Shown here: one piece after another, positions 1 through 19,900 of the stretch | How positions within the stretch are numbered: position 1 is the first letter of the stretch | How the letters are laid out: the number at the start of each line of letters is the position of its first letter | IMG/VR virus record: IMGVR_UViG_3300044641_004328 | Coordinates: 1 to 26,422 of that record | DNA length: 26,422 nucleotides | Source: a virus | Strand: one strand, 5' to 3' | The notes under the pieces: model-generated | What the model saw: the letters and a program-made list of their open reading frames with translations, nothing else | Databases searched by the model: none | What the model was told of the DNA's origin: nothing | Position numbers and translations under genes: made by a program

Positions 1-84
1 AAAGTTTCGGATCCAGGAGTTTATCTATTATCATTGACTGTTGATGAAGAATTGTGTTTTGAAAGTGATATAATTGTTTTATGA
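1..84 (+). CDS. C-terminal end of an unrecognised protein (partial)
   Basis: Frame 1 is open from the window edge to a TGA at 82-84 and gives 27 residues ending in ...CFESDIIVL. Its stop overlaps the ATG of the next gene in an ATGA junction, the same coupling seen at many later junctions, so this is very likely the tail of a real gene in the same operon. The fragment is a short mix of acidic and hydrophobic residues with no motif I recognise. From position alone it could be a virion protein or another member of the oxygenase cassette. Confidence 0.7.
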   Translation, partial: KVSDPGVYLLSLTVDEELCFESDIIVL

Positions 85-668
85 AAAAATATGAAAGTAT
101 GGAGAATCCAATTGTCGGTATTTCCATATATCATGGTGTTTTTGATGCATCAAAATTTTTGCTTACTCTTGAAAGTTCCTGCGGTTCATCACAAGATCCT
201 CTTGTATGGGAGGATTCCCATGTTGGTCCTAACGGGGGTTACGTTTCTGAATACAGGACATCGGTAAATTGCCATCTTGAGTCAATAATGTCAAATGTAA
301 GCAAACATCAGTTGAAACCATCTTTGTATGAACTAAAAGACAAAATTGATGCTTGCGCATTTGATTACTCAGAACAATATGATTGCAATATGGGAATACA
401 TGAGCCATATCAAGTCTTGAAGTACACAGAAGGCGCAAATTATCGTGCTCATCACGATAGGAGCAGTCTAAACGGCAGAACCGTGAGTATTGTTGCATCT
501 CTCCAAGCTCCAGAAGAAGGTGGGGAACTTGAGTTTCCTTTTTTTGATTATACTTTCAAACCAGTTAGTGGAAGTTTAGCGATTTTCCCCTCAACACACC
601 CATACACTCATATAGCGCATCCAGTTAAGAAAGGGCTAAAGTATTCTTTAGTTACATGGTATTTATGA
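81..668 (+). CDS. Fe(II)/2-oxoglutarate oxygenase, prolyl-4-hydroxylase-like (first of three)
   Basis: 195 residues, the size of a single double-stranded beta-helix oxygenase domain. The iron ligands are readable: H124-x-D126 in YRAHHD, and a distal His, best placed at H177 in the pattern H-x-x-x-P-V. K187 in GLKYSL sits where P4H-type enzymes place the basic residue binding 2-oxoglutarate. The EEGGELEF segment (about 145-152) matches the usual strand after the HxD turn. Family members hydroxylate C-H bonds using O2 and 2-oxoglutarate, often on Pro or Lys side chains. The substrate cannot be read from sequence. The 81 start is preferred over the in-frame ATG at 99 because it forms an ATGA overlap with the upstream gene. 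The stop overlaps the halogenase start in the same way. Confidence 0.88.
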   Translation: MKKYESMENPIVGISIYHGVFDASKFLLTLESSCGSSQDPLVWEDSHVGPNGGYVSEYRTSVNCHLESIMSNVSKHQLKPSLYELKDKIDACAFDYSEQYDCNMGIHEPYQVLKYTEGANYRAHHDRSSLNGRTVSIVASLQAPEEGGELEFPFFDYTFKPVSGSLAIFPSTHPYTHIAHPVKKGLKYSLVTWYL

Positions 669-2152
669 AAAATGATAAAGAGCAGATAGAGATTGCAGTT
701 GTTGGTAGCGGAACTGCTGGTTTCGTAGCAGCCTTATTGCTAAAAACAGCATTCCCGGTTTTAAACATCAAGCTTGTTTCGTCTTCAAAAATTGGAATTA
801 TTGGTGTTGGTGAGGGATCAACTGAGCATTGGAAACAGTTTATGAATCTGTGCAAGATACCGCTTCTTGACATGATCAAGGAAACTGATGCAACACATAA
901 ATACGGAATAAGGTTTGAAAATTGGTCAAATGCTCATCCCGACTATTTCCATAGCGTTTCGGGTGATGATCAAATTTTTGCTTATGGCTTGTTTCCGATG
1001 TATATGGGTTTTATAGATAACAATATGCTTCTTACTAACCAAACAACTTCCGTTGGGTTAATACAGAATAAAATTCGTGTAAAAAATTTACATGAAAATA
1101 CAAATCAATATCATTTTGATACAAACAAGTTGAATAAATACTTTGACAAATTGTGTTTTGAAAGAAGGATAGAAAAAATTGATGGTGAAGTAAAGCATGT
1201 TAATATAAATACTGAAACTGGGAATATAGATTCAATTGATCTTGATGACAACACAAATGTTGTTGCTGATTTTTGGTTTGATGCAACAGGATTTAATAGA
1301 GTTTTAATGACAGCTTTAGGAAATACAGAATGGGAGTCTTTTAAGGATTATCTTCTTTGTGATTCAGCATTTGCTTTCCCAACAGAATCTGACCCTTCAA
1401 AACAAATAAGACCTTATACAAGAGCGAGAGCACTATCTTCTGGCTGGGCGTTTGAGATACCAACTGTTGCCAGAAGGGGGAATGGTTATGTTTATTCCTC
1501 TCAGCACATCACTGAAGATAAAGCAGTTGATGAAATGTCTGCACTTCTTGGAATTGAAGTACAGCCATCTAAGACATTCAAATTTGATCCCGGCTACCTA
1601 AAGAAGTCTTGGGTAAAGAACTGCGCAAGCGTTGGTCTCTCAAGTTCTTTTGTTGAACCTCTTGAGGCAACATCAATAGGAACATCAATAATGCAAATGA
1701 TGATGATTGTTCCGTATGTTGCTTCGTACCAGTCATACTACGAACACTCGCAAAATCATTACAACAAGCGCATGGAAGCCATGATGGATAACATCTTGAC
1801 AATGATAAGGCTTCACTACCACACTGACAAAACAAATAGCCAGTTCTGGATTGACGCAAAAAATGCAAAGCTGAACGAAGAACTAGAAGATTCACTTAAC
1901 TTGTGGAAAGAAAGAACCCCAACACGCTATGATTTCCCAAATAATTCAAACCAACTATTTGGTGGTGCTCATCTAATTCATGTAGCGCAAGGGCAAAATG
2001 TCATCAATCGTGATTCAATAGATCCAGCATTAGTTAGGATGCAATTAAAAGGGTTTGTTGGTGACGCAATGTCTCAATCACGTATAAACAGATCAAATCA
2101 TGAATTGATTGATCATAGAGAGGCGCTGGAAAACATAGATGTTTGGCAGTAA
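665..2152 (+). CDS. Flavin-dependent tryptophan-halogenase-like oxidoreductase
   Basis: About 495 residues, typical of flavin-dependent halogenases. Numbering from the alternative in-frame ATG at 656: the FAD-binding loop GSGTAG is at 17-22, the GVGEGS segment at 50-55, the catalytic-type lysine K82 in THKYGIRFENW (aligning with K79 of PrnA by motif), the second signature SGWAFEIP at 262-269, and PLEAT at 335-339 whose E337 aligns with the PrnA active-site glutamate. The second signature is usually WxWxIP; here the second Trp is Phe. I choose 665 because it makes an ATGA junction with the preceding stop; neither start has a clear ribosome site. Known family members oxidise halide to hypohalous acid with FADH2 and O2 and need a separate flavin reductase; none is visible here. 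Halogenation is inferred; another flavin oxidation is possible. Confidence 0.9.
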   Translation: MKNDKEQIEIAVVGSGTAGFVAALLLKTAFPVLNIKLVSSSKIGIIGVGEGSTEHWKQFMNLCKIPLLDMIKETDATHKYGIRFENWSNAHPDYFHSVSGDDQIFAYGLFPMYMGFIDNNMLLTNQTTSVGLIQNKIRVKNLHENTNQYHFDTNKLNKYFDKLCFERRIEKIDGEVKHVNINTETGNIDSIDLDDNTNVVADFWFDATGFNRVLMTALGNTEWESFKDYLLCDSAFAFPTESDPSKQIRPYTRARALSSGWAFEIPTVARRGNGYVYSSQHITEDKAVDEMSALLGIEVQPSKTFKFDPGYLKKSWVKNCASVGLSSSFVEPLEATSIGTSIMQMMMIVPYVASYQSYYEHSQNHYNKRMEAMMDNILTMIRLHYHTDKTNSQFWIDAKNAKLNEELEDSLNLWKERTPTRYDFPNNSNQLFGGAHLIHVAQGQNVINRDSIDPALVRMQLKGFVGDAMSQSRINRSNHELIDHREALENIDVWQ

Positions 2153-2948
2153 AAAACAAGTTCGTACATACAAAGACATTAAAAAACCGAAGCCTGGGCA
2201 AATCATGGTTTTTCCCCGGGATAATCGGCTTTACGAAACTGGTCCATTTGTTAATTCAGCAAGAACATTGCCAGACTGGTTTAAGGGTATTGATAAAAAT
2301 CGTGGTTCAATAAGATCTTGCTCTGGAACACTTGATTTCTTGCAATTAGGAATAACAGTTCCTATGTGGACAAATGCATATTTTACTCCAAACTTAGCTT
2401 CTCCAAGTCAATGGGATATCAGAATGGATCAAATGCCGTATTCAGAATCTTTTGGCAATGAACCATTCCCTTTCCATTCGGTAGGGAAATGCCCCATGAC
2501 TGAAGTACGGAGCATTGAGAAAAGTGCATTCCCAAAACTAATCAACCCCTGGTGTTTTGTAACAGCCCCTGGTTGGTCATCTATTGTCATTCATCCAATG
2601 TTTGAACCAAACAAGGATTGGACAACTGTTGCCTCAATCGTTCATACTGATTTTTATCATAACCTAAATGTTGTTTTAAATATCACAACAGAAAACCCAT
2701 TTACAATAAAAGCAGGAGCTCCTGTAATGCACATCATCCCTTTTAAAAGGAATATGGACACAGAAAAAATATTGATGGAAGACTCTGACTTGTTTAGATT
2801 CGTAAATGCTCGTGGGTTTGGAGACAATGCGGTTATACCGATTTCTAGCACAGGAGGGTCTTATAAGTCTTACCAAAGACAGATTGATGAAGGCATTGAG
2901 GCAAAAGAGTCTTCAAGAAATTTTTTTCAAAGATTAAAAAATGGCTAA
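2139..2948 (+). CDS. Conserved phage protein of unknown function, halogenase neighbour
   Basis: 269 residues, overlapping the halogenase by 14 bases and the next oxygenase by 8, so it is translated as part of the same cassette. The sequence has the look of a phage protein family I recall beside oxygenases and halogenases (possibly DUF6065, not checked). Its features are an N-terminal LPDWFK segment, a central CSGTLDFLQLGITVPMW stretch, a PWCFVTAPGWSSIVIHPMF strand pair, an acidic VHTDFYHNLNVVLN stretch and a conserved-looking PVMHIIPFKRN near 210-220. The Gly/Pro-rich beta pattern and GAPVMHIIPF would fit a cupin or jelly-roll-like fold, but I see no clear metal triad. No signal peptide or membrane segment. 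No function is assigned. Confidence 0.75.
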   Translation: MFGSKKQVRTYKDIKKPKPGQIMVFPRDNRLYETGPFVNSARTLPDWFKGIDKNRGSIRSCSGTLDFLQLGITVPMWTNAYFTPNLASPSQWDIRMDQMPYSESFGNEPFPFHSVGKCPMTEVRSIEKSAFPKLINPWCFVTAPGWSSIVIHPMFEPNKDWTTVASIVHTDFYHNLNVVLNITTENPFTIKAGAPVMHIIPFKRNMDTEKILMEDSDLFRFVNARGFGDNAVIPISSTGGSYKSYQRQIDEGIEAKESSRNFFQRLKNG

Positions 2949-3444
2949 AATTGAATATATAAAAAATGCAATTAGTGACTTCTATAAAGAAGAAATTCTT
3001 GCTGAGGTGAATAGAAGCTTTGACACTCCAATTTGGGTAAGTAGCCATAAGTGGAGTGAGGTGTTGACAAACAATATGCGCCCGATTCTTATGAGAAATC
3101 TTGAGAACGAAAAGGATACCCTCCATAATATTCTTTGTTCAAAGACAGAAACTTTGAGAGGGTTGACCCCAATGAACCCAGTACTTTACCTATGGGAGCC
3201 TGGTTCCCACATAGACTGGCATGACGATGCTGGGTGGACTGCAGCAGCGTCAATATATCTTACAACACAGGACAGGAGGGGTGGAGGTGCGTTTGCTTGG
3301 GAAGAAGATGATGGTACAATCAAAATGATTTTCCCAGAACAATGTTCTGCAATAATTCAAAGTGAAAACACAAATCATCATGTTACGATGATTCACCCAA
3401 CCAATCCTTCGTACAGAATGTCAATTCAAATATTCTACCGTTGA
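2941..3444 (+). CDS. Fe(II)/2-oxoglutarate oxygenase (second of three)
   Basis: 167 residues, short but complete for a 2OG oxygenase core. H94-x-D96 lies in HIDWHDDAGW, the glycine-rich turn GGGAFAWEEDD follows (114-124), and the distal His is H146 or H147 in NTNHHVTMI. R159 in SYRMSIQIFY is the expected 2-oxoglutarate-binding Arg. It begins 8 bases inside the preceding gene and ends 4 bases before the next open frame, consistent with one transcript. It differs enough from the first and third oxygenases in length and motif context to suggest separate origins rather than recent duplication. The substrate is unknown; proteins of this size in phages are commonly annotated only as 2OG-Fe(II) oxygenase. 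Confidence 0.85.
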   Translation: MAKIEYIKNAISDFYKEEILAEVNRSFDTPIWVSSHKWSEVLTNNMRPILMRNLENEKDTLHNILCSKTETLRGLTPMNPVLYLWEPGSHIDWHDDAGWTAAASIYLTTQDRRGGGAFAWEEDDGTIKMIFPEQCSAIIQSENTNHHVTMIHPTNPSYRMSIQIFYR

Positions 3445-3463
3445 TTGAATGAAAGAAGAAAAG

Positions 3464-4174
3464 ATGACTCATTACAATGTTGTTATATGTACACCTGGAG
3501 ATATGCTGTTTAAATCATACGTAGGTTGCCTTGTAGATACAATAAAATATATGGAAGACAATGATATTACATGGACATGCGTAATAGAGTCATCCCCTCA
3601 TATACCAAAAACAAGGGCTTTGATTCTGAACAACGGGTATTTGCCAAATGGTGGATTTGAAGAGTTTATGCCGGAAGACAAACTTAAAAAGTGGCAGACA
3701 TTTGGTGGAGCCTTTACGTATGATCAAATTTTATGGATAGATAACGACATAACTTGGACAATTGAACAATTTAAAAAAATATTAAGCCATCAAGAGGAGG
3801 TTGTCTCTGGAGTGTATATGTTTGACAATAATAAAGATGTTGTCGCTTCAATGGAGCCGGGGTCTGTTCTGAGCGTTGATGAATTGTTGAGATTAAACCA
3901 ATCTGAACTGCACGAAGTCCATACTTGCGGAATGGGTTTTATGAAGGTTAGATATGGAGTATTTGAAAAACTGCAGCACCCAATGTTTCTTGTCCATTCG
4001 TATGATTATTTTGTAAAAAAATATAATAAAACGTATTGTTTTTACACAACAGATGAAGACACTTCATTTTGCCATAGGGTGAGAGAGAGTGGATCAAAAG
4101 TTTATCTTGACCCATCAATACGTGTTGGGCACTTTAAAAGAGTTACTCTTTCTGCGCCAGCAGTTGAGTTTTAG
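3464..4174 (+). CDS. GT-A fold glycosyltransferase
   Basis: About 236 residues. From the 3464 ATG, the DxD-type metal/nucleotide-sugar motif is D93-N94-D95 in ILWIDNDITW. A GMGFMKVRYGVFEKL segment follows, as in GT-A enzymes that recognise an acceptor. The C-terminal TDEDTSFCHRV...KVYLDPSIRVGHFK is the usual catalytic ED plus late His block. These enzymes move a sugar from a nucleotide donor to an acceptor in the cytoplasm; donor and acceptor cannot be read. An in-frame ATG at 3449 is possible, but only 3464 has a purine-rich AGAAGAAAAG in front. Lying between two hydroxylase-type oxygenases, it invites the idea of hydroxylation followed by glycosylation, as on collagen hydroxylysine; this is inference. 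Confidence 0.85.
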   Translation: MTHYNVVICTPGDMLFKSYVGCLVDTIKYMEDNDITWTCVIESSPHIPKTRALILNNGYLPNGGFEEFMPEDKLKKWQTFGGAFTYDQILWIDNDITWTIEQFKKILSHQEEVVSGVYMFDNNKDVVASMEPGSVLSVDELLRLNQSELHEVHTCGMGFMKVRYGVFEKLQHPMFLVHSYDYFVKKYNKTYCFYTTDEDTSFCHRVRESGSKVYLDPSIRVGHFKRVTLSAPAVEF

Positions 4175-4185
4175 GAGAAAAAAAA

Positions 4186-4821
4186 ATGTCTTATACAAAT
4201 ACAAATAATTCAATTTGCTGGTACGACAATGCTGTTCCGAATGAACTGTGTGACGATCTAATTCAGTTATACGAGGCAAACAAGGATTACCACCTCCCTG
4301 GCAGAACGCTGGAAGGCGTTGCCGATGTAAAAATATCAACCGACATGGCTTTGTGCTCTCCAGAATTTGGAAACGATTCTGAAGATAAAATCCGGTTCAA
4401 GACAATTCTTGATGACGAACTTGCTGGTTTTGTGAATAATCGCATATACGAATACATCTCTGTGTTTGATTGGATAACCTCTTCGTTAAACACGTATCAC
4501 ACTAATTATGTGATTCAAAAATATCAAGCAATGAAGGGGCAGTACCAGGAACACATAGATGGAGCCTCGTGGAGCGAGCCATCAAGGGAGAGAATTTGCG
4601 GAATAATTGTTTATCTTAATGACGTAGAAGAAGGTGGTGGAACATATTTCCGTCATCAAAATACGTATATAGATGCCAAAAAAGGTCGTATTGCCATTTT
4701 CCCTGCAAACTGGACACACCCTCACACGGGGACAGTTCCTATTTCAAGTGATAAATATATTGTTACCAGCTTCTTGATGCCAACAGAGATAATCAGTGTT
4801 AAAGAAAAGTATGTTTTATGA
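4186..4821 (+). CDS. Fe(II)/2-oxoglutarate oxygenase (third of three)
   Basis: 211 residues, preceded by AGGAG at 4173-4177 that overlaps the previous stop codon and sits 8 bases before the ATG. Iron site: H123-x-D125 in YQEHIDGASW, then the turn EEGGGTYFRH (149-157) and FPANWTHPHTG with H178 or H180 as third ligand. K190 in SDKYIVTSF is the 2-oxoglutarate anchor. This layout is close to the oxygenases that are frequent in cyanophage and other aquatic phage genomes. The N-terminal 110 residues may carry substrate specificity. It overlaps the following membrane-protein gene by an ATGA junction. Substrate unknown. Confidence 0.88.
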   Translation: MSYTNTNNSICWYDNAVPNELCDDLIQLYEANKDYHLPGRTLEGVADVKISTDMALCSPEFGNDSEDKIRFKTILDDELAGFVNNRIYEYISVFDWITSSLNTYHTNYVIQKYQAMKGQYQEHIDGASWSEPSRERICGIIVYLNDVEEGGGTYFRHQNTYIDAKKGRIAIFPANWTHPHTGTVPISSDKYIVTSFLMPTEIISVKEKYVL

Positions 4822-5099
4822 ACAAGATAGTTAATGCAGTAAAAACAATGAGTTCCAAAAAATACTGGAACCGTGTTAACACAGTTGAAGCATGGGGCTT
4901 TGCAACAAAGATTGCAATTATTTTCCCTGGTCTATTGCTTGGCAAGCAGTTCTGGTGGCTCTACATCTTTGCCATTATTTCAAGCGTCGCTCTTATTTGG
5001 ACTTCAACTCGCAAAACACTCCCAACAATTATTTTGTTTAATTGCGCTTGGGTTGTTCTTGCATCACTTTCAATCCTTAAACACTTCTGGTGGTTCTGA
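4818..5099 (+). CDS. Small three-helix membrane protein of unknown function
   Basis: 93 residues coupled by ATGA to the third oxygenase. Hydrophobic segments are visible at about 28-42, 44-61 and 68-93, the last ending in HFWWF at the C-terminus; the N-terminus is basic and amphipathic (several Lys). It is Trp-rich, with W at positions including 20, 26, 46 and 47. No enzyme motif. It could anchor the cassette's products at the membrane, could be an extra holin-like protein, or could be an unrelated passenger; the sequence does not decide. About 40 AT-rich bases containing a promoter separate it from the next gene. Confidence 0.7.
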   Translation: MNKIVNAVKTMSSKKYWNRVNTVEAWGFATKIAIIFPGLLLGKQFWWLYIFAIISSVALIWTSTRKTLPTIILFNCAWVVLASLSILKHFWWF

Positions 5100-5124
5100 T
5101 TAATCTTAATTAATAGTTATCATC

Positions 5125-5137
5125 TATACTTAACTAT
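5125..5137 (+). promoter_or_regulatory. Promoter with -10 box giving a likely leaderless transcript
   Basis: TATACT at 5125-5130 is followed by 7 bases and then the GTG start at 5138. Transcription normally begins 6-8 bases after a -10 box, so the mRNA would start at or next to the start codon. No Shine-Dalgarno sequence precedes the GTG, which fits. No good -35 box is visible. Confidence 0.5.
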
Positions 5138-6964
5138 GTGATATACTCAAGAAAATTAAGATTTAGAAAAGGATCGTGGTTAATACTCCCTGCTATCGTC
5201 TTGGGGTTGTTTTCATCACCAGTCAAAGCAGATACCTTCAGAACAGAAGGCGCTAATGACTTTTATTTTGAACTAGAGTCCGGCACAACCTTTACCGCAA
5301 GAGCGACTGCTCAAGTGTATGGCATTGACAGTCAGCTATGGTTATACGACAGCACTAATACGGTAGTCGCTGTAAATGATGACTATTTTGGCTTAGATTC
5401 CTATATTTCTTATAATGTCCAACAAAGCGGTGTTTATAGAATGAGAACGAGTGTTTGCTGCGGGGATCCAAATAGGTGGTACAACCAGTTCTATACCGTA
5501 GAGACAAGTTCTCAGCCAACAAATGTTCCGACAACGACTACAAGCACCACAACAACAACCAGTACAACTACGACCACAATTGCTCCGTACCTGAATGCTC
5601 CTCAAAACCTACAGGTTACTTCAACCAATGCAAGCAAGGTTTATCTAAGCTGGGATGCTCCGAGTCCATCAAACGTGGAGTTAGAGAGGTATGCCGTTTT
5701 TGGATCATGCAATAACTGGGTTACAGGCTTTGCAATCTCAACTACACAAACTGTTGCGGTCATAGAGGATCTTGATTCAGGGACCTCTTGTCAATTTAAA
5801 GTTCGTGCTGATAATGATACGTTGTCGGTTTATTCAAATTTTACTGAAGATGTAACAGGAGTCACTCAGACTACAACCACGACTTCTACGACTACAACAA
5901 CTACTACCGTGGTCCCAACCACCATGTTGCAAACAACAACAACGGAACTACCGAGTACCACAACAAGTTCAACAACACAGGCTCCTGTTGTTACTCAACC
6001 CGATGTTCCTTTGACAACCGTTGCCACAGCAACGACTCTTTCCTCCACAACCACCAGCAGACCCCCGCAAACAACGACCCTGCCATCAACAACAACTTCT
6101 TCAACGACAACCTCCACAACTATTGTTAACACAACTACGACGCTAGATATTCCTGAAGAAGCAAACGTGCTTGCAACAAGCATTTTGGCAAACTCAGATA
6201 ATCCGGCTGAACTGAGTGCTGCTGTTGACAACGCTGTTGCCTCAGTAGAATCCCCAGAAGAACTTGCTTCAATTGTATCATCGTTGCTTGACAAACCTCT
6301 TACTGATGACCAGTTTTCTGCTGTTATTGACGCTGTGTTTACCGAAAGTCTTACTACCGAAGAATTAAGTGCAGCCCTGGATGCTGTTTTTGCGGAACCA
6401 ATTTCTGATGAGAAGTTCACAGAAGTTCTGTCTGCAGTCTTGGATAATCCACTTGATGCCGAGCAGTTCGCTGCAGTTGTGGACATCCTTGAATCAGATT
6501 CTGTTTCGGAAGAACAGGTGTCTCTTGCTGTGGACAATATTTTGGAAAACGGTATTACGGATAGTCAAGCAACAGACTTAGCAACAAGTCCAAAAGTTCT
6601 GGAGAGCATTGACCCAGAACAGGCTTCCTCTGTATTTGAGCAGATACCCGTAAGTGATTTAACAACAGAAGAAGAAAAGGCGCTCGTTGAGGCAGTATCG
6701 GATGCTCCAACTGAAGTAAAAAATGCTTTTGAAAACACAATTGATATTTTTGGGGCAGGTCTTGATGAGTATGAAGCGGTTGGTTCCAGCGTCAATGTTG
6801 GCACCAGAAGAGTAGTTATCGCAGCAATAGGAGTAGTTACTTCTATAACAGTTGTTGTGCCTCCAGTCCCAACAGCACCAATTGGGTCAGGAGGAGGCTC
6901 TAGCAGTCCATCCGGCGGTTCTAATGCAGGAACCGGGGGTTCAAGGCAGCGAAGGCTGAAATAG
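5138..6964 (+). CDS. Secreted, membrane-anchored Thr-tract protein with FN3 domain and 17-residue helical repeats
   Basis: 608 residues from a GTG start. In order: a signal peptide (basic 1-11, hydrophobic core 13-27, likely cleavage after VKA at 31); a beta domain at about 32-123 resembling prepeptidase C-terminal domains (QLWLYDS... NVQQSGVYRMR) with a Cys pair at 107-108; a Thr tract at 132-147; a fibronectin type III domain at about 152-240 with Cys 191 and 218; a second Thr/Ser/Pro tract at 244-335; about eight 17-residue acidic helical repeats at 388-524; a hydrophobic segment at about 557-578 (RRVVIAAIGVVTSITVVV); and a Gly/Ser tail ending in RQRRLK. Proteins with this plan are, to my recollection, widespread in aquatic Actinobacteria, so host origin is likely. 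It is probably displayed on the cell surface. Receptor masking, adhesion and a virion role are all open. Confidence 0.85.
   Translation: MIYSRKLRFRKGSWLILPAIVLGLFSSPVKADTFRTEGANDFYFELESGTTFTARATAQVYGIDSQLWLYDSTNTVVAVNDDYFGLDSYISYNVQQSGVYRMRTSVCCGDPNRWYNQFYTVETSSQPTNVPTTTTSTTTTTSTTTTTIAPYLNAPQNLQVTSTNASKVYLSWDAPSPSNVELERYAVFGSCNNWVTGFAISTTQTVAVIEDLDSGTSCQFKVRADNDTLSVYSNFTEDVTGVTQTTTTTSTTTTTTTVVPTTMLQTTTTELPSTTTSSTTQAPVVTQPDVPLTTVATATTLSSTTTSRPPQTTTLPSTTTSSTTTSTTIVNTTTTLDIPEEANVLATSILANSDNPAELSAAVDNAVASVESPEELASIVSSLLDKPLTDDQFSAVIDAVFTESLTTEELSAALDAVFAEPISDEKFTEVLSAVLDNPLDAEQFAAVVDILESDSVSEEQVSLAVDNILENGITDSQATDLATSPKVLESIDPEQASSVFEQIPVSDLTTEEEKALVEAVSDAPTEVKNAFENTIDIFGAGLDEYEAVGSSVNVGTRRVVIAAIGVVTSITVVVPPVPTAPIGSGGGSSSPSGGSNAGTGGSRQRRLK
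6299..6709 (+). repeat. 17-residue (51-base) helical repeat block inside the secreted protein
   Basis: Successive units read LTDDQFSAVIDAVFTES, LTTEELSAALDAVFAEP, ISDEKFTEVLSAVLDNP, LDAEQFAAVVDILESDS and VSEEQVSLAVDNILENG, then three more diverged units, one of 18 residues. The pattern is hydrophobic-x-x-E-x-F-x-x-x-hydrophobic, as in short stacked helices. Weaker copies precede the block from about residue 356. Nucleotide identity between units is low, so the array is old rather than freshly expanded. Confidence 0.8.
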
Positions 6965-6990
6965 AAAAGAAAACCAATGGGAGGTCGGTG

Positions 6991-7164
6991 ATGTTTAAAA
7001 AATTAATTAATGAGATTCATGCTTTGGCATGGACACTTGGCGGAAGCGGAATTGTTCTTATAACGCTTTCTGGTCAAACAAGGTTTTGGGGTATATGGAT
7101 AACCATTGCCTCACTTGCAGTGCACCTTATCGGTGTGCTTATAAAAGGAGATAGTGATGAATAA
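6991..7164 (+). CDS. Small two-helix membrane protein, holin candidate
   Basis: A 57-codon frame starts MFKKLINEIHALAWTLGGSG and ends IKGDSDE. GGGAGGT-like purines (GGGAGG at 6979-6984) lie about 6 bases before the ATG, a good ribosome site. Two hydrophobic segments, about 12-27 and 33-52, are separated by a short polar turn (SGQTRF), with a basic N-terminus and acidic C-terminus, the layout of class II holins. The last codons overlap the next small membrane-protein gene by 8 bases. It opens a run of three small membrane proteins that ends at the endolysin, the main support for a lysis role. The sequence itself matches no holin family I can name. Confidence 0.72.
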   Translation: MFKKLINEIHALAWTLGGSGIVLITLSGQTRFWGIWITIASLAVHLIGVLIKGDSDE

Positions 7165-7451: not shown

Positions 7452-7643
7452 ATGATTAAAGTTTCGGAACAGAATAAAGCAATCCTTGCCTCTTATGCAA
7501 GAAGTGTGCTCGGCGCAGCTGTTGCAGTATATGCATCAACTGGTGATGTTAAGATGGCAGCAAATGCTTTGTGGGCAGCAGCTCTGCCTGTAATCATTCG
7601 CTTCCTTAACCCCAACGATGGGGCATTTGGGAGAACAAAATAA
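7452..7643 (+). CDS. Small membrane-associated protein, third holin-type candidate
   Basis: 63 residues from the ATG at 7452, chosen because AAGGAG at 7441-7446 precedes it by 5 bases; the longer frame from 7413 begins inside a promoter box. Residues about 10-26 (ILASYARSVLGAAVAVY) and 33-52 (MAANALWAAALPVIIRFL) are hydrophobic or amphipathic, and the C-terminus reads NPNDGAFGR. I have the impression of a recurrent small protein next to endolysins in actinophages, not verified. It overlaps the endolysin by one base (TAATG), so translation is coupled, which fits a holin-endolysin pair. Confidence 0.75.
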   Translation: MIKVSEQNKAILASYARSVLGAAVAVYASTGDVKMAANALWAAALPVIIRFLNPNDGAFGRTK

Positions 7644-8215
7644 TGACACCTAAGTACCCATACAAAAAAATGACTTTACCAAAAGAACTTGTCCCAATGA
7701 AAGACGAGACAGGTAAACTTACCCCAGAGATGCTTACAACTTCAGTTAATGGAGCAAAGTTTTGGCGCTGGGCAGGTATTGCTTTTAATCAAATGTTTAA
7801 TGATGCAAAAAAAGCAGGTTTGAATCTACAGAATATCGGAGACTTCCGTTCATATGATCAGCAATTGGCTATGTTCAAGGAAAGATATTCAACCACAGAT
7901 GGTGGTCGTAAGCCTACTGTCACAAGAACTTGGGATGGAAAGACTTGGTACCTTAAGCCAAAAATGAGTCCATCAAGCAGCCCTGGCAAGAGCAACCACG
8001 GTTTGGGTCTTGCAATTGACTTGAATGTTACTGATCCTAAAGTTCTAAACTGGCTGTGCGAAAATGCCCCAAGTTACGGGTTCTATCTCCAATCATCAGA
8101 TCCCAAGTCCCCAGAATTTGAGGCTTGGCATTGGCAGTATGTAGAAGGCGATGCTACTCCAGCAGCAGTTAAAGAGCGTTTTGAAAAAAATGAGGCAAAG
8201 AAGGCTGCTAAGTAA
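7643..8215 (+). CDS. Endolysin, M15-family (VanY-like) L,D- or D,D-peptidase
   Basis: 190 residues with a single zinc-peptidase domain. H119 in SNHGLGLAIDL and D126 of that motif are the first two zinc ligands; E160-A-W-H163 gives the general base and third ligand; R69 in GDFRSYDQQ is the usual substrate-binding position. M15 peptidases cut peptide cross-links of peptidoglycan and are common phage lysins. There is no signal peptide, so release would depend on a holin from the three membrane proteins directly upstream. The last 20 residues are Lys/Ala/Glu-rich and may aid wall binding. The stop overlaps the start of a cysteine-rich microprotein. Confidence 0.92.
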   Translation: MTPKYPYKKMTLPKELVPMKDETGKLTPEMLTTSVNGAKFWRWAGIAFNQMFNDAKKAGLNLQNIGDFRSYDQQLAMFKERYSTTDGGRKPTVTRTWDGKTWYLKPKMSPSSSPGKSNHGLGLAIDLNVTDPKVLNWLCENAPSYGFYLQSSDPKSPEFEAWHWQYVEGDATPAAVKERFEKNEAKKAAK

Positions 8216-8323: not shown

Positions 8324-8659
8324 ATGGCTGGATTAAGAAATATAACTATTTATGCTGGAGATACTTACCTTCATGAATTGAGGATAAAAGACTCTGCTAA
8401 TGCTGCGATCAATATCACTTCGCATACATTTACTGGACAGATTAAGGTCGGGAAACTTGAATCAGAAAAGGTTGCGACGTTTACAGCAAACATTTCTAAT
8501 GGGGCAGCAGGTATTGTCCAATTCCTTTTGACTTCAAATGTGACTGCGAATATAACTCCGGGTACATATTATTATGATATTCAACAAATTAACGGAACAG
8601 TTGTCACGACTCTTTTGGGAGGTAAGGTAATTGTACAAGGAGATATAACCCGTGGCTGA
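8324..8659 (+). CDS. Virion protein with BppU-N-like beta domain
   Basis: 111 residues with AGAGGAA (8312-8318) before the ATG. The pattern is an early IYAGDTYLHELRIKD, a polar beta core, then ITPGTYYYDIQQINGTVVTTLLGGKVIVQGDITR, which resembles the N-terminal domain of phage baseplate upper proteins (BppU) and related Ig-like structural proteins: x-PGxYxYDI, then a strand ending in xVxxDxTR. Such domains sit in baseplate or fibre attachment proteins. Start of a fibre-type gene set; overlaps the next gene by 8 bases. Exact role unverified. Confidence 0.65.
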   Translation: MAGLRNITIYAGDTYLHELRIKDSANAAINITSHTFTGQIKVGKLESEKVATFTANISNGAAGIVQFLLTSNVTANITPGTYYYDIQQINGTVVTTLLGGKVIVQGDITRG

Positions 8660-8924
8660 TATTACGACAGTAAGAATAGAGTCCGGGGATGTAACTCAGG
8701 TTAATTTAAGCAATACAGATACAACAACAGTATCAATAAGTTCTGGTGATGTTACGGTCTTAACAGGAGTTACTGCATCAATAAGTGCAGCGTCTTTAAG
8801 TTTTTCTGCTGATACACCACAGGATATAGCAAGGTCTGGGTCAGCTGGCTCCAGCGCTGCAGCAAGTAGAGCGGATCATGTCCACTCAATTGCAAACACA
8901 TTACTTGATGGAGGTAATTACTAA
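8652..8924 (+). CDS. Small fibre-type virion protein
   Basis: 90 residues from a GTG that lies 8 bases inside the preceding gene. Beta-rich, Ser/Thr/Val-rich sequence with a repeated ...ESGDVTQVNLSN / SSGDVTVLTG pattern, ending in SAAASRADHVHS, a motif common in phage tail fibres and collar proteins where the His may hold a metal in a trimer axis. Its stop is one base from the next gene's start. Likely part of the receptor-binding apparatus or a fibre adaptor. Confidence 0.6.
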   Translation: MADITTVRIESGDVTQVNLSNTDTTTVSISSGDVTVLTGVTASISAASLSFSADTPQDIARSGSAGSSAAASRADHVHSIANTLLDGGNY

Positions 8925-13908: not shown

Positions 13909-16900
13909 ATGGCTGACGCAACTGGACATATTAGAGTAGAAACTATCATTGACGACTCGCTCAAGAGCGGGCTTAAAGGTGTCTCTGATAGCATATTCTT
14001 AGTCTCAGCCAGAATTAATGGTCTTAATCTTCTTACAAGAAGTTTGACAAATTCCAACTATGCGGTGTCGCAGTCGTTGAAGAGTGTGTCCTCAGCCCAA
14101 TCTGGAGTTGCCAAATCAGCAAGAGAATTGGCTGCAAATCAAGCAATTGTTGCTAATTATTTGAAACAAGTTCGCATTGAAGCAGATGCTGCTAAAACTG
14201 CATTGCACTCACATCAGATGACTCTTTCACAAACGTCTGCTAGTTACAAGCAAGCCGGTGCTGAGATTGCTTTCATTGATCAAAAATTAAGACATCTGAA
14301 TTCAACACAAAAAGTTGTTGATAGGACAATGCGAGCAAACGCAATGCAAACGATGTCTAAGCAATACAATAAGCAAGCAACTGAATTGAGTTATGTTGGT
14401 CAACGTCTCACGATGGGGTTGACACTTCCTCTTGTAACGCTCGGTCGCTTAGGGTTTAGTTCACTAAAGAAGTTGGACCAAGAACTTATTAGAACCAGAA
14501 AGCTTCTTGATGACACAGGTGATGGTGCTGACAACCTTGAAGGAAGAATGAAAGTTCTGGGGGAAAGACTTGATGACATCTCTTACAAATGGGGTGTATC
14601 AAGAGAGTTGCTACAGGGTCTTGCTGGAGACTTTGCTGAATTAGGCATATCCGATCCAAAAACATTGGCAAACCTCGTTCAGATTACAAATGAGATTGAA
14701 AAACTTGGTAACGTAGATATAACTGATGCCGGTAAATTGACTCAATCAATTTATCAAAACTTGTTGAGAATTAGAAGACTCCAGGGGATGAGTGTTACTG
14801 ATCCAATGGCTCTGCAGCAGATTACGCAAGAAGTTCGTGGAGCAATTGCACTATTCAACTATGCTGAAAACAAAACTTCTCTTTCGTTGAAGAACATTGC
14901 TGACGCATTCCCAGAAGTTTCTGGTGCTGCAACAAGCTTTGGTCTCAACATGGCTACAACAGCAGCATTGCTTGTTCCGATGGTTTCTGCTGGTTTTCAA
15001 GTAGGGGCATCAGCAAACTCAATCAAGGTTTCTTTACAGAAACTTGTTCTTCCAACAAAAGACACGAGAAAGTTGATAAACGCTCTCCGTCAAGAACTTG
15101 GACCAAACTTCAAGATGTCTGCTGACATTGGAGGAGAAGGTCTGCAAAACTTAGTTGATGGCTATATTGAGTTGGAAAAATCCCTATACAAAACGCAAGG
15201 TACGATGCAATTGTTTGGAAAGGCTTTTGGTGTTAGGCAGGGACCTAGAATGGAAGTTGCTATTCAACAAATGGCTGCTTTCCAGAAACAATTGAATAAT
15301 GCAAAAAGCAGTGAGACCCTAGTTCTGTCTACTTTGGAGCAAAGCATCAATGCTCAGTTAAGGAAGAACGGCTTAGAGGAAGTTAGTCTTAAAAATATTA
15401 AGGGTATTCAAGACTTGAACTCTGCTTCAACTGAGAGAAGTAAGGAGAATAATCTTGAGTACACTGAAAGAGCCAAGATTATTCAGAAAATACAGGCGCA
15501 AGAGGCTAAGCAACTTATAACGTCGGACAAGATGAGAAAAGCAATGCAGGATATATCAACTGAATCTGGAAAGATATTAATTGGTGGTGCTTTTGGTCAA
15601 GAAGAAACCGGCAGAACGATGGAAGAGGAATTAAGGAAGTCTGAGCAGTCACTGAACGTACAGGCTGGTCGGGTAAGAGAATCTGTTAAATCAATCGCTA
15701 GAGACTTTACAGTTGCTTTTGGTGAAATATTAAAAGTTGTTAGTCCAATCTTCATCAAGATTGCAAAAACAATTAGAGAGTTAAGTCCTGGTTTTAAAAA
15801 AGTAATTGGGCTTGCAGCAATTTTCTTAGTCACCATTGGACCAATAATTAGAATATTCTCTTTGTTCAAACAATCACAAAGCCTTGCAATGCTTGGTTTG
15901 GCAAAAGGTCTTACGGTAGGTCGTACACAGGCACAACAATTAGATGCGCAATTGTTGAAAACAAGCGATAGTCTTTTGCGATTAGGCAAGATCGGTAAAG
16001 TAACTCAGATAGGCGACAAAATTTTCCTTGAGGGCAAAGCAAAGACTAATAAGAAAGCAATGGAACTTGTTGGTCTTGAATCACAATATGACCCAACAGA
16101 CACAAGCCGTTCCTCACGTAGAACTGGTAAGAAAATTTCAAGTCTTAAAAAAGATTTAGGTATTGTACGGGGGGGAAGAACTAGCGACATGGATGTATCT
16201 GGCTTGATGCCAGGAACCTTAGACGCTCTTGGTTTAAACCCACTTGCTCAAAACAGACCAAAAAATTCAGCACAAATGAAAGCACAGCGTCTGGCAAATA
16301 TAGATATAGCCAAGCAATATTCTGCTCAATTAAAAGCTGCAGCAGCCAGTGCCGCTGCAGCAGCCAATGCCGTTGCTGTACCCGCTGTTGCTGTGCCGAC
16401 TGTTGCATCCACAGCGGGAGGTTCTGTATCTACTGTAGGTAGTGTTGCAACCACAGTCGGAAGTGTTGCAAACAAATCAATAAACCAAGGTCTCGGACAA
16501 GCATTGGGCAAGATAATTGCAATCTTGCAGGCAATAAAAAACTGTGCCTGCAATGGCAAGAACGTATTGGCTCCAAATCCACAGGGGATTCCGGGCGCAG
16601 GAGGCATATCACCAACTGGACCTCCTGCTGCAACCCCTACCCCTGCAAAACCTGCAGCAGCAAACGCACCGAATGCAACACCCGGAGGCATACCTAAGAG
16701 AACAACTAAAGGACCACTAAGAACGCCTGATGCACAAGCAGACGCTGTTAGTGGTCCTTCAATCTATACCAGCACAACGCCTGGAGGCATACCTAAGAGA
16801 ACAGTTAAAACTCCATCTGCACAACCTGCTGGGAAACCTATAGTTACAGAATTTAAAATTGGAGACAGAGATGCGACCTCTACTGTATACCCTGTCCAAA

Positions 16901-19900
16901 CTCCTGACCAAACTGAGAATGAAAGATTTCCTCATGGCTTACGTGTAGGTCCAGGACCTGAAGGATTTACAAGACTTGGAGACACTGTTAGAGAAACTGT
17001 TAACGATGTTGCTAACAAGATAGAAGCACAAGTACGTCAAATAGGTCCTGGACTACAAATAATTCCAAAATCTCAGGCGTTTGCAAGTATTGGAGACGCT
17101 GCTGAAAAAACTGTTGATGATGTTATTGAAAATGTAAACGAACAGGTTGCGGATGCAACTAAGTCTGCGCAGTCAACAATAAAGAGAATTACCAATACTG
17201 ACCTTTCCGAAGAGGCTTCGCAGCCAACTAGGGGAGACGGTTCTGGTACAGAGTCAAGAGCATCTAGGCGTAGCAAGCGTGACCTTGCCTCTGATGCTTC
17301 AATGTCTCAAAGTGAAAAACTTGATGTTCAATTCAAGAGAAGTAGTGCCTATCGCACTCAACTAAAAGATGCTAAAGAAGCAGCAGAGAGGGATATAAAA
17401 GATGCTCTTGAGAGTGCAGCAAATTCTGTTGCACAAGTTGTTGATGAAGTAGAAGTGGCATTAAATAAACTTGGTTCTGATGTAACCGCTGATGTAAAAG
17501 TAGTTGCCTCGGCAGGAAAAGCCGTTGAAGATAAAGTTGAGAAAGCAGTAGAGACGGCAAAGGATTCTACAAGAATCCCTAGAGAACTGCTAAACAGAAG
17601 TAGACCAGCTCCCCGTGTTAGCACTCAAGAAGAAATATCAGACATTGCTTTCTCTCTAGGTAACGAGACAGGGAGTACTCCCTTGCCTTCAACTAAAGCA
17701 GAAAAACTTGATGCCCAACGTATATTAGGATCTTCGGTACCGCCTGCTCCACCAGTTCGTGAAAACCAAGGACCAATTGGTTATCCAGCACAACTGTATG
17801 CAATGCTTAAAAAAGATATACAAGATAGAGGGCTTAGTCCAAACGAGGCTGCAATGACAGCTTTTAAGGCAACAATAGAGGGAATTAAGAGAAAGGCTGC
17901 TCGCAGCCAGCGTTCTAATCTTGGAACAGTATTTGGTATTGGCTTAGGAGAACAAAAAATCGGGGAAGATGGAGAGCCAATAGATACCGATGCAACGTAC
18001 CAATACAAGATTGTTGACAAAAAAGCCGAAAGAGAAAGAGCCTTGGCTATTGGGCGAGATGCCTCTCGTGCTTCTCGTGCTGTACCAGCACCAATTGACA
18101 CTTCTCCTCGCCCATTAGAACCTCAAGAGGTTGAAGACGTTGCTAATTTAAGAGAAGCACGAAGGAAGGCGGGGAGAGGCGACCTATCCGAAGCTGATAA
18201 AGATCTTGAACAAAAAGTTAATAAAAGAATACAAGACGACGCAAACGATCTTGCTAAAAGAAGAGAGGCTGCTGCGCTTCAGCAACAACGGGCTAGACGA
18301 GCAGAAGCGAGTGCTGGTTTAGTAGAAGGACAAAGACTACCTGCCTACGCTTCTGACGAACCGGATCCAAAAGTTCTAGAAGCTCAGCGACAGGCTAGAC
18401 CAGACCTCTTGGGTGAAAAAGCAAGGATGCAAATGCAAAGCGTAACCCAGCAAGCAGTTGCTGAAGTTAAGGAAGTGCAAGGTCTTGTCCATGAAACTAG
18501 AGCAAGATTTGAGTTAACAAAAGACAGTTTGATTGCAACATTCCGTGAATTAGGAATAAAACCACCTGACGACTTGTTGGCTGCTTCTGAATTTGCGGTA
18601 AAAATAAATCAAAAAACTGGTCAAAAAATAGTAGAAACCCTATCAAACCTTAAGAAAGCGGGTAAGATAGATCCCCAACAATTATACAAGAGAGGCGTGG
18701 TCAAAAGTCTTACTGGTGGAAAAGAGAAGGTAGCAGTTGATGATGCAATCGCTGCTGCTATGCCGAAAAAAACAGTTCTAGACAATCCAGAAAAGGCTAG
18801 GAGAGCAATCAGGATAACGTCAGCTTCTGTCGGCTTAAGGTATGGAGATAAAGACCCAAGTTATCCAGCAAGAATGCGTCGCATAATAGGCAGGTTTGGA
18901 AGTTTTGCTGGAGATGCAAAAGCCCAGGGTGAAAGTGTATTTAACAGGACTGCTGCCGCTATTAGTCAGATAAATATTAAAAGAGAAACAGATGCTGAAG
19001 AACGTAGAAGAAAATATGACGAAAGAGTAGCAGCAGGAGAAAGACCAACAAGCGAACCGAATCCTGCAGTTAAGATGCTCAACCCTGAGTCCCCAACAGA
19101 AGCAAGGGAACTAGCAAGAACAACAGGAAGGAGATACGTTGATATTGCCTATCCTAATATTAGGAGATCAAGAAAAAAAACCTTAGACGCAAGAAAAAAA
19201 GCTTTAGTCCAAACAACCCCAGAACAAGAAGCCGTAAAGCAAGCACAAAGGGAAGCGGATAGGGAAAGAGTTCGTCTTTCTACAGCTGCTATAGCAGCAG
19301 GGGAAGTGGAGACAAGAGGTCGCAAAGAAAAAAGAGATCAGGTAGTAGCAGAAGCCATTCAGAAACAAAATGAAGAAAAAGCCATACGTGCAGCAGAAAA
19401 AGCTGCCAAGGAAGCAGATAAGGCAGCTGAGAAGGCAAGCAAGACAGGTCCAAGACCAGTCACCGTTAAGACTTTTGAAGATCTCCCTGCGTTGATTCAA
19501 AACGACCCAGAATCCGCAAGTAAAAGAATGGAGGTCATGCGAGCATCATTGCCAGAGGCTCCTGTTATTCCAAAGCCCAGTTTAGAACCCCCTGCTCGTA
19601 TTGCCGAGGGGCGAAGAGCGCTGGTTATTTCGGATCTCAAGAAGCGGGTCAGGGATGCTGCAGAAAAAGCAAAAAGAGAAGGAAAGAAACCTGATGACAG
19701 CCTTAAAGGTCTTAAAGGAAAAGAGTTGGAAGATGCATTGCTGGCTCAATATGAGGAAAGTCAAAAGAAAAAAAGAGAAGAAGCCCTGGAGCGTATGGAG
19801 AAAAAACGTGCTGACGCTGCAGCAGGCGGAAGCGCCCCAGACATATCCGAAAGTAAGAGACCTAAATCGCTAAGTGCAGCAGCAGCATCTGGTCCAACGA

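Follow-up and report, generated by a model that had tools for sequence, protein, structure and literature searches.

We know of no natural substrate for the halogenases and 2OG oxygenases of phages. Flavin-dependent halogenases of the PF04820 kind usually act on small aromatics, and the related flavoenzymes LodB, GoxB and QhpG tailor proteins. Viral members of the halogenase family include VirX1 (PDB 6qgm) and the products of the prnA genes of P-SSM2 and S-H38. Halogenases, like 2OG oxygenases, are frequent in aquatic phages; among 153 cyanophages halogenases were found in 20 and 2OG oxygenases in 76 (PMC10452541). A viral 2OG hydroxylase together with a glycosyltransferase (GT) occurs in the Mimivirus/PBCV-1 collagen-type system, the PBCV-1-type prolyl 4-hydroxylase being a known viral enzyme (PMC9301287). 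The archaeal virus STIV has an essential GT, A197, whose presumed substrate is the major capsid protein, and no oxygenase or halogenase partner is described for it in the accessible part of that report (PMC10551542). Iron-binding HxH motifs have been described in the fibres of T4 (gp37) and Alteromonas phage R22Y, with possible metal binding (PMC11705849), and the Gly/His-rich structural protein Nvjp-1 of the Nereis jaw is described as halogenated (PMC13120676, citing Birkedal 2006).

The locus described here lies in a viral sequence of 26,422 nt (positions 1 to 26,422 of IMG/VR record IMGVR_UViG_3300044641_004328, hereafter the window) and encodes a halogenase of the same family as VirX1, 35–39% identical to the S-H38 and P-SSM2 enzymes. 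2OG-type genes are found near the halogenase in P-SSM2 and S-SCSM2R as well, but enzymes of the VirX1, P-SSM2 and S-H38 kind have neither an adjacent His-rich fibre nor the conserved core of C0, DUF6065-like protein and C7 described below. Matches of window proteins to LodB, GoxB and QhpG in NCBIfam are weak and far below the cut-offs, and no LodA/QhpC-type partner was seen. The Mimivirus/PBCV-1 system is similar in combining a viral 2OG hydroxylase with a GT; here, however, halogenase and dUTPase-like protein belong to the core and the GT can be absent, and the closest fibre is rich in His instead of being a long collagen.

Gene order and predicted enzymes of the cassette

The first-pass annotation described six coupled genes with overlapping or nearly abutting ends at 81–4821, and this is borne out by the ORF coordinates, by Pfam and phrog matches, and by a relative with the same gene order. 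All are on the plus strand: the core genes 2OGa (81–668), halogenase (656–2152) and an 'orphan' (2139–2948), followed by a second-type 2OG oxygenase, 2OGb (2941–3444), the GT (3449–4174) and a third oxygenase, 2OGc (4186–4821). The first four genes overlap in succession by 13, 14 and 8 nt, and 4 and 11 nt separate 2OGb from the GT and the GT from 2OGc. The cassette extends past both of these borders. The start of 2OGa is overlapped by 4 nt by C0, a conserved 138-aa protein of unassigned function, of which the window holds the 3' end (1–84, plus strand); the gene is complete (8490–8906) in contig L001, which is 99.8% identical to the window over 12,149 bp. At the other end, 2OGc is overlapped by 4 nt by C7 (4818–5099, plus strand), a strongly conserved, Trp-rich, putative membrane protein of 93 aa and the last gene of the cassette. 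A second contig (L002, 72% identical) preserves the order of all six genes, 2OGc being in the same place and interrupted by the contig end. Between the window and this contig, 10–18% of the nonsynonymous sites differ in the five complete genes while synonymous sites are saturated, which indicates purifying selection. The six-gene arrangement is real and not due to chance. A promoter-like site 5' of the cassette (L001, 8186–8214) was discarded, as none is listed at L002 and the counts are near chance.

In alignments, the HxD...H iron triad and the K/R for 2OG are complete in all three oxygenases. 2OGa matches 2OG-FeII_Oxy_3 (PF13640) at E = 9e-13, with a facial triad of H124, D126 and H177 and the 2OG-binding K187; both triad and K/R are retained in 86/86 homologues of its type. 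The corresponding match of 2OGc (HxD, H and K) has E = 1.8e-9, and that of 2OGb (H94, D96, H147, R159) has E = 1.4e-4, its 23.2 bits lying below the curated cut-off of 27. The closest solved sequences to 2OGa (E = 2.6e-4) and 2OGc (E = 2.2e-7) are prolyl 4-hydroxylases; going by these nearest solved sequences, both are prolyl-4-hydroxylase-like, with peptidyl-proline hydroxylation as a putative activity. The halogenase is assigned to its family by the Trp_halogenase match (PF04820, E = 1.5e-95, 321 bits against a cut-off of 21) and by its motifs, and halogenation is the predicted activity. Its GxGxxG flavin motif is intact, and K82 and E337, the equivalents of the catalytic K79 and E346 of PrnA, align with solved halogenases and are present in 73/73 module homologues. 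The WxWxIP motif reads WAFEIP in the window, the second W position being W in 61 and F in 12 of the 73. No flavin reductase gene was seen in the cassette.

The GT has no Pfam match but belongs to phrog_1574 (E = 1.9e-33), and its model (pLDDT 86.8) matches GT-A folds in the PDB, the best matches including LH3, COLGALT1 and mimivirus R699. The DxD (D98/D100), E203-D204 and H228 are invariant in 24 sequences, and we assign the protein a GT-A fold with a DxD and a catalytic acid, transferase activity being predicted. STIV A197 is its best match (profile E = 1.5e-5, fold E = 3e-10), although the two share 16% identity.

The 'orphan' falls in phrog_7084 (E = 1.2e-23). It does not itself match DUF6065 (PF19541), for which its best relative (L011) scores 24.0 against a gathering cut-off of 26.6 bits, but 10/44 family members match weakly, suggesting a distant relationship. 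All 24 PDB matches of the family profile are dUTPases or dUTPase-like proteins (best E = 0.0028), and 10/44 members match the Pfam dUTPase family (PF00692, best E = 6.4e-6). The dUTPase motif III (GVIDxxY) is absent, the family reading IVHTDYY opposite GVIDSDY, and an AF2 model from 8 sequences was poor (pLDDT 47.6) and gave no significant fold match. The similarity to dUTPases (beta-clip) is weak but consistent, and would be the first fold hint for the widespread DUF6065-related family.

A conserved core linked to a histidine-rich fibre

A scan anchored on the halogenase gave 80 viral loci (45–100% identity). A 2OG oxygenase and the DUF6065-like 'orphan' each lie beside the halogenase in 75/80, a 244-aa fibre protein is found in 66, C0 in 58 and C7 in 48, whereas the window-type GT and 2OGb are present in only three. 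The core of the cassette is C0-2OG-halogenase-DUF6065-like-C7, so that the 'orphan' is a core member rather than the odd one out, and the GT and 2OGb are lineage-specific add-ons. When anchored on C7, in which about 45 positions are nearly invariant across 44 sequences, 63/66 loci carried the halogenase and the 'orphan'. At a 90% identity threshold the halogenase relatives fall into 66 clusters, and their active sites do not vary. The six-gene order recurs in L002, but the six genes as a set are not a conserved unit. Halogenase, 2OG oxygenase and 'orphan' are, however, co-inherited in about 94% of the 80 relatives, with 100% conservation of the catalytic residues among homologues; neither of the outcomes that the first-pass annotation had named as evidence against a pathway, genes scattered singly or degraded active sites, therefore applies.

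The phage backbones differ: backbone genes, among them the head-tail adaptor, are shared by only 8–9 of the halogenase loci, and the module is also present in L189, whose tail module is of another kind. This contig and L188, which matched as bacterial genomes, appear to be phage contigs that ended up in MAG bins. No cassette partners were detected by profiles around the closest halogenases of cellular organisms, those of Shewanella and other proteobacteria. A nucleotide search of annotated phages gave no matches, and neither C7 nor the fibre protein has a relative there.

Directly upstream of the cassette, outside the window but present in L001, is a Gly-rich, fibre-like protein with a segment of about 166 aa that is 24% His. 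The label 'fibre' is based on composition, position, an Lcl_C lectin-like domain below cut-off (two members) and collagen repeats (one member). Using a threshold of 12 or more His in 60 aa, a His-rich segment is encoded upstream in 62/79 halogenase loci and in 0/80 loci of a GT-anchored control; a few halogenase loci (e.g., L165, L176, L177 and L180) have no His-rich ORF. The reverse scan, with the N-terminal domain of the fibre as query, placed the cassette within 6 kb of the fibre in 61/61 informative loci. The halogenase is within 6 kb and on the same strand in 57 of these, and in the remaining four, all from one virus, it is convergent on the opposite strand, representing an inverted cassette. 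With 75% identity and a pn/ps of 0.235, the His segment is true coding sequence. Fibre, halogenase, 2OG oxygenase and 'orphan' have correlated distances (Mantel rho 0.40–0.82, 0/500 permutations), a signal that shared descent also predicts. The likeness to T4 gp37 and R22Y is that of His in a phage fibre, but here His makes up 24% of about 166 aa and an enzyme cassette is attached; an HxH iron motif was rejected as an account of the segment, since a His spacing of 2 shows no enrichment (ratio 1.02).

Candidate substrates

The module is almost always found directly after the His-rich fibre, which suggests that these phages modify, and perhaps halogenate, their own fibres. In the module, a small beta-rich fibre protein, the Gly/His-rich fibre, a 79-aa protein, C0, a 2OG oxygenase, the halogenase, the dUTPase-fold/DUF6065-like protein, variable add-ons and C7 follow in that order, and the proposal is that its enzymes are dedicated to the oxidative, post-translational modification of the fibre encoded just upstream. 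With the substrate deduced from linkage, we give this proposal a slightly better than even chance. The 2OG enzymes would hydroxylate residues in the His/Pro/Asn/Gly-rich segment, and the halogenase would oxidize or halogenate the aromatic side chains of His, Tyr and Trp. In the window lineage the GT could add sugar to hydroxylated residues or to Ser, Thr or Asn. The DUF6065-like protein may be an adaptor or a further modifying enzyme. As a benefit, the virion might become more stable, bind metal or bind its receptor differently. Of the targets proposed in the first-pass annotation, a phage fibre is the best candidate by linkage, while the Thr-tract protein is not conserved beside the halogenase; no such cluster occurs in six or more halogenase loci, though low-complexity masking could hide one. 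A more specific version, that a dUTPase-fold scaffold organizes the halogenase and 2OG hydroxylases to halogenate and hydroxylate the Gly/His-rich fibre, is doubtful; it would be the first viral protein-directed halogenation system, chemically convergent with the halogenated His/Gly-rich hard tissues of animals. Nvjp-1 is Gly/His-rich like the phage fibre but is an animal protein without homology, an analogy only, and we know of no such enzyme cassette for it.

That the enzymes instead modify a glycan or protein of the host envelope during infection, or act in superinfection, and adjoin the fibre because both concern the receptor, is unlikely in our view. A conserved C7 placed in the membrane and strongly linked to halogenase and 'orphan' would fit, as would the GT, GT4 and sulfotransferase genes that recur near fibres, but the window-type GT is missing from the core in 77/80 loci, the cassette directly follows late structural genes, and no envelope-directed signal was identified. 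Somewhat lower is the probability of an auxiliary metabolic role, in which a small halogenated or hydroxylated metabolite, or the use of 2-oxoglutarate, steers the physiology of the host; proposals of this kind have been published for the 2OG oxygenases and halogenases of cyanophages (PMC3037559, PMC10452541). VirX1 iodinates diverse substrates, according to PMC10452541 (citing Gkotsi 2019), but near-obligate linkage to one fibre type would be unexpected for a metabolic gene, and the cassette lacks a biosynthetic core enzyme. No positive evidence was found for the small-molecule product suggested earlier.

The resemblance to collagen-type hydroxylation and glycosylation that had been noted holds in part, and leads to another candidate, a different fibre with collagen-like (Gly-X-Y) or Gly-rich repeats modified by prolyl/lysyl hydroxylation and glycosylation. 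Collagen-like ORFs occur in 42/80 halogenase-anchored relatives, a collagen operon adjoins halogenase and GT in DSL-LC01 (in the order collagen operon-halogenase-GT), and both the GT fold and the nearest solved relatives of 2OGa and 2OGc agree with it. We nevertheless think it improbable, since runs of 10 or more triplets are lacking in about half of the loci, including the available sequence of the window's own phage (L001), whose fibre is Gly/His-rich; moreover, the GT is rare, and it is the His-rich fibre that accompanies the cassette more consistently. Fibre loci recombine often, and most loci come from related viruses, so fibre and cassette may travel together. That the cassette is cargo with no functional link, passed on together with a fibre hotspot within a single broad group of phages, is nonetheless highly improbable given the 66 halogenase clusters with invariant active sites, the linkage retained after inversion, and the differing phage backbones.

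The His-rich fibre is a concrete and testable candidate substrate for the halogenase and 2OG enzymes, as they are nearly inseparable from one odd fibre across a large phage group, and the halogenase, hydroxylase and dUTPase-like protein define a conserved and widespread phage module. If the fibre proposal is correct, virions of uncultured phages would carry halogenated or hydroxylated protein, which would matter for adsorption, for stability in the environment, for metal binding, and for biocatalysis by enzymes acting on whole proteins. The halogenases of cyanophages, pelagiphages, L014 and DSL-LC01 have no His-rich neighbour, and there is thus no general tie between halogenase chemistry and His. 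As in DSL-LC01, halogenases adjoin fibre or structural genes in other phages too: L014 has GT-halogenase-C7 close to a collagen-like fibre, S-SCSM1 has GT-halogenase-baseplate, and in HTVC008M a 2OG-halogenase pair lies amid neck and terminase genes.

Coupled genes and their active sites

ORF mapping of the window, a complete virus record of 26,422 bases, placed the six tightly coupled genes of the first-pass annotation at the same positions (81-4821, + strand). Family searches bore out the identities given there: three PF13640-type 2OG-Fe(II) oxygenases (2OGa, 2OGb and 2OGc), a PF04820 halogenase, a glycosyltransferase (GT, phrog_1574) and an orphan protein (phrog_7084, 2139-2948). Two more coupled genes lie beside these: C7 (4818-5099), which overlaps the cassette by 4 nt and encodes a Trp-rich putative membrane protein of 93 aa, and C0, the 3' end of which occupies bases 1-84. 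With about 45 near-invariant positions across 44 sequences, C7 ranks with the best-conserved members of the module (fibre, C0, 2OG, halogenase, orphan and C7).

The flavin motif, K82 and E337 of the halogenase align with solved halogenases and are invariant in 73 homologues. Alignment showed HxD, H and K/R to be present in all three 2OG enzymes, and in 86/86 2OGa-type homologues. No flavin reductase gene was seen in the cassette, and reduced flavin for the halogenase would need to come from the host. The GT model is a confident GT-A; its best PDB matches (STIV A197, Mnn9, mimivirus R699, LH3 and COLGALT1) are at fold level only, with TM about 0.5 and 10-16% identity.

DUF6065 picks up orphan relatives in the related contig L011, halovirus HF2 and cyanophage S-RIM4, with scores below the cut-off. 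An orphan profile (44 sequences) gave 24 PDB matches at E up to 1 (best 0.0028), all of them dUTPases or dUTPase-like chains aligned on dUTPase motif III, and Pfam dUTPase was matched by 10 of the 44 family members (best 6.4e-6). The structure model is poor, so it is from these matches that we infer a dUTPase fold for the orphan, with the catalytic motif of dUTPases missing.

The histidine-rich fibre

Contig L001 shares 99.8% identity with the window across 12,149 bases and continues upstream. There, 5' of the cassette, lie genes for a capsid-type protein and for several small beta-rich proteins, together with those for a 234-aa fibre-like protein, a 79-aa protein and a 734-aa protein rich in Gly. 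This last protein, itself fibre-like (L001:5970-8174), has a 196-aa segment of NPHHTT / NGGHH repeats within a Gly-rich frame, and an N-terminal lectin-like Lcl_C domain that scored below the cut-off. Comparison of L001 with L002, a 72%-identical relative, shows purifying selection on the His segment; the enzymes of this pair show 71-85% amino-acid identity, and synonymous divergence is saturated.

His segments were surveyed at 79 loci, comprising 77 of the 80 viral halogenase loci plus L188 and L189, and an upstream protein with at least 12 His per 60 residues (up to 27) was found in 62. The 56 distinct segments average 166 aa, with 24% His and 8.5% Pro; their flanks are Gly-rich, and the remainder of the same proteins has 0.8% His and 4.2% Pro. 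A His-rich ORF of at least 200 aa was present at 61/78 halogenase loci but at none of 80 GT-anchored control loci, which are shorter on average (0.84 vs 1.38 Mb in total). In the reverse scan, the 84-aa N-terminal domain of the fibre was the query, and 61 loci had a complete fibre end and sufficient downstream sequence; the halogenase lay downstream on the same strand in 57, and the other four represent one virus with the cassette on the opposite strand.

The fibre/C0/2OG/halogenase/orphan module is also carried by L189 (a Gammaproteobacteria MAG contig) and L188 (an Actinomycetota MAG contig). Both look like phage contigs from bacterial bins; they point to different host phyla, and the binning may be wrong.

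Since linkage to one fibre is constant, and is kept through inversion and on different backbones, and since the sites of the O2-dependent enzymes are intact, the His-rich fibre is the likeliest candidate substrate of the cassette enzymes. Precedents are the Nereis jaw, for a halogenated Gly/His-rich structural protein (PMC13120676), and mimivirus and PBCV-1, for viral hydroxylation together with glycosylation (PMC9546862, PMC9301287). Single viral halogenases and single viral 2OG oxygenases are already known; no description of the module or its link to a His-rich fibre was found in a search of open-access papers. The module would fall under virus-encoded modification of virion fibres, a known kind of system, and fibre halogenation, if confirmed, would make it a new kind.

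Conservation of the module and related gene runs

The suggestion that the six genes form one pathway found partial support. L002 keeps all six in order (the last truncated), and local profiles found 2OG and orphan each at 75, C0 at 58 and C7 at 48 of the best 80 halogenase loci in IMG/VR (45-100% identity), but GT and 2OGb at only three each; because these are the best 80 of more matches to the halogenase alignment, the proportions hold for close relatives and not for all phage halogenases. Neighbour clustering of these loci recovered a 244-aa fibre-like protein at 66, a 79-aa protein at 58 and, under strict clustering, the Gly-rich fibre at 39. Halogenase and orphan occur at 63/66 C7-anchored loci. 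C7 was found three times without a halogenase, twice beside the GT family.

Other lineages combine these kinds of enzyme differently. GT, halogenase and C7 accompany a collagen-like fibre in L014; GT and halogenase lie beside baseplate genes in S-SCSM1 and L064, and are also paired in L075. The lake actinophage DSL-LC01 has the order collagen operon-halogenase-GT, and 2OG and halogenase genes overlap in pelagiphage HTVC008M. Other loci carry a GT-GT-orphan run behind a fibre-like gene, to which L044 adds a sulfotransferase (sulfotransferase-GT-GT-DUF6065-like, 4190-7092, directly behind a repeat-rich tail-type protein). At 6288-10049 of L011, three DUF6065-like paralogues alternate with a 2OG oxygenase and a GlcNAc-transferase of PF11397, to which hydroxyproline GlcNAc-transferases belong. 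At 71 of the 80 GT-anchored loci, no clear collagen-like ORF was seen and none of the partners covered by the profiles; GT itself is therefore not tied to the module.

The 2OG-type oxygenases here match PHROGs 274, 2297, 3531 and 2954, labelled 'DNA endonuclease (V)' and 'ferrochelatase'; these labels, which also appear in the record of cyanophage S-H38, seem to be mistaken. Between the cassette and a VanY-type endolysin (7643-8215), the window encodes a secreted-looking 608-aa protein (5138-6964) with a signal-like N-terminus, an FN3 domain and long Thr tracts. A 3,994-aa tape-measure protein with Pro/Ala/Lys-rich stretches (13909-25893) accounts for almost half the contig.
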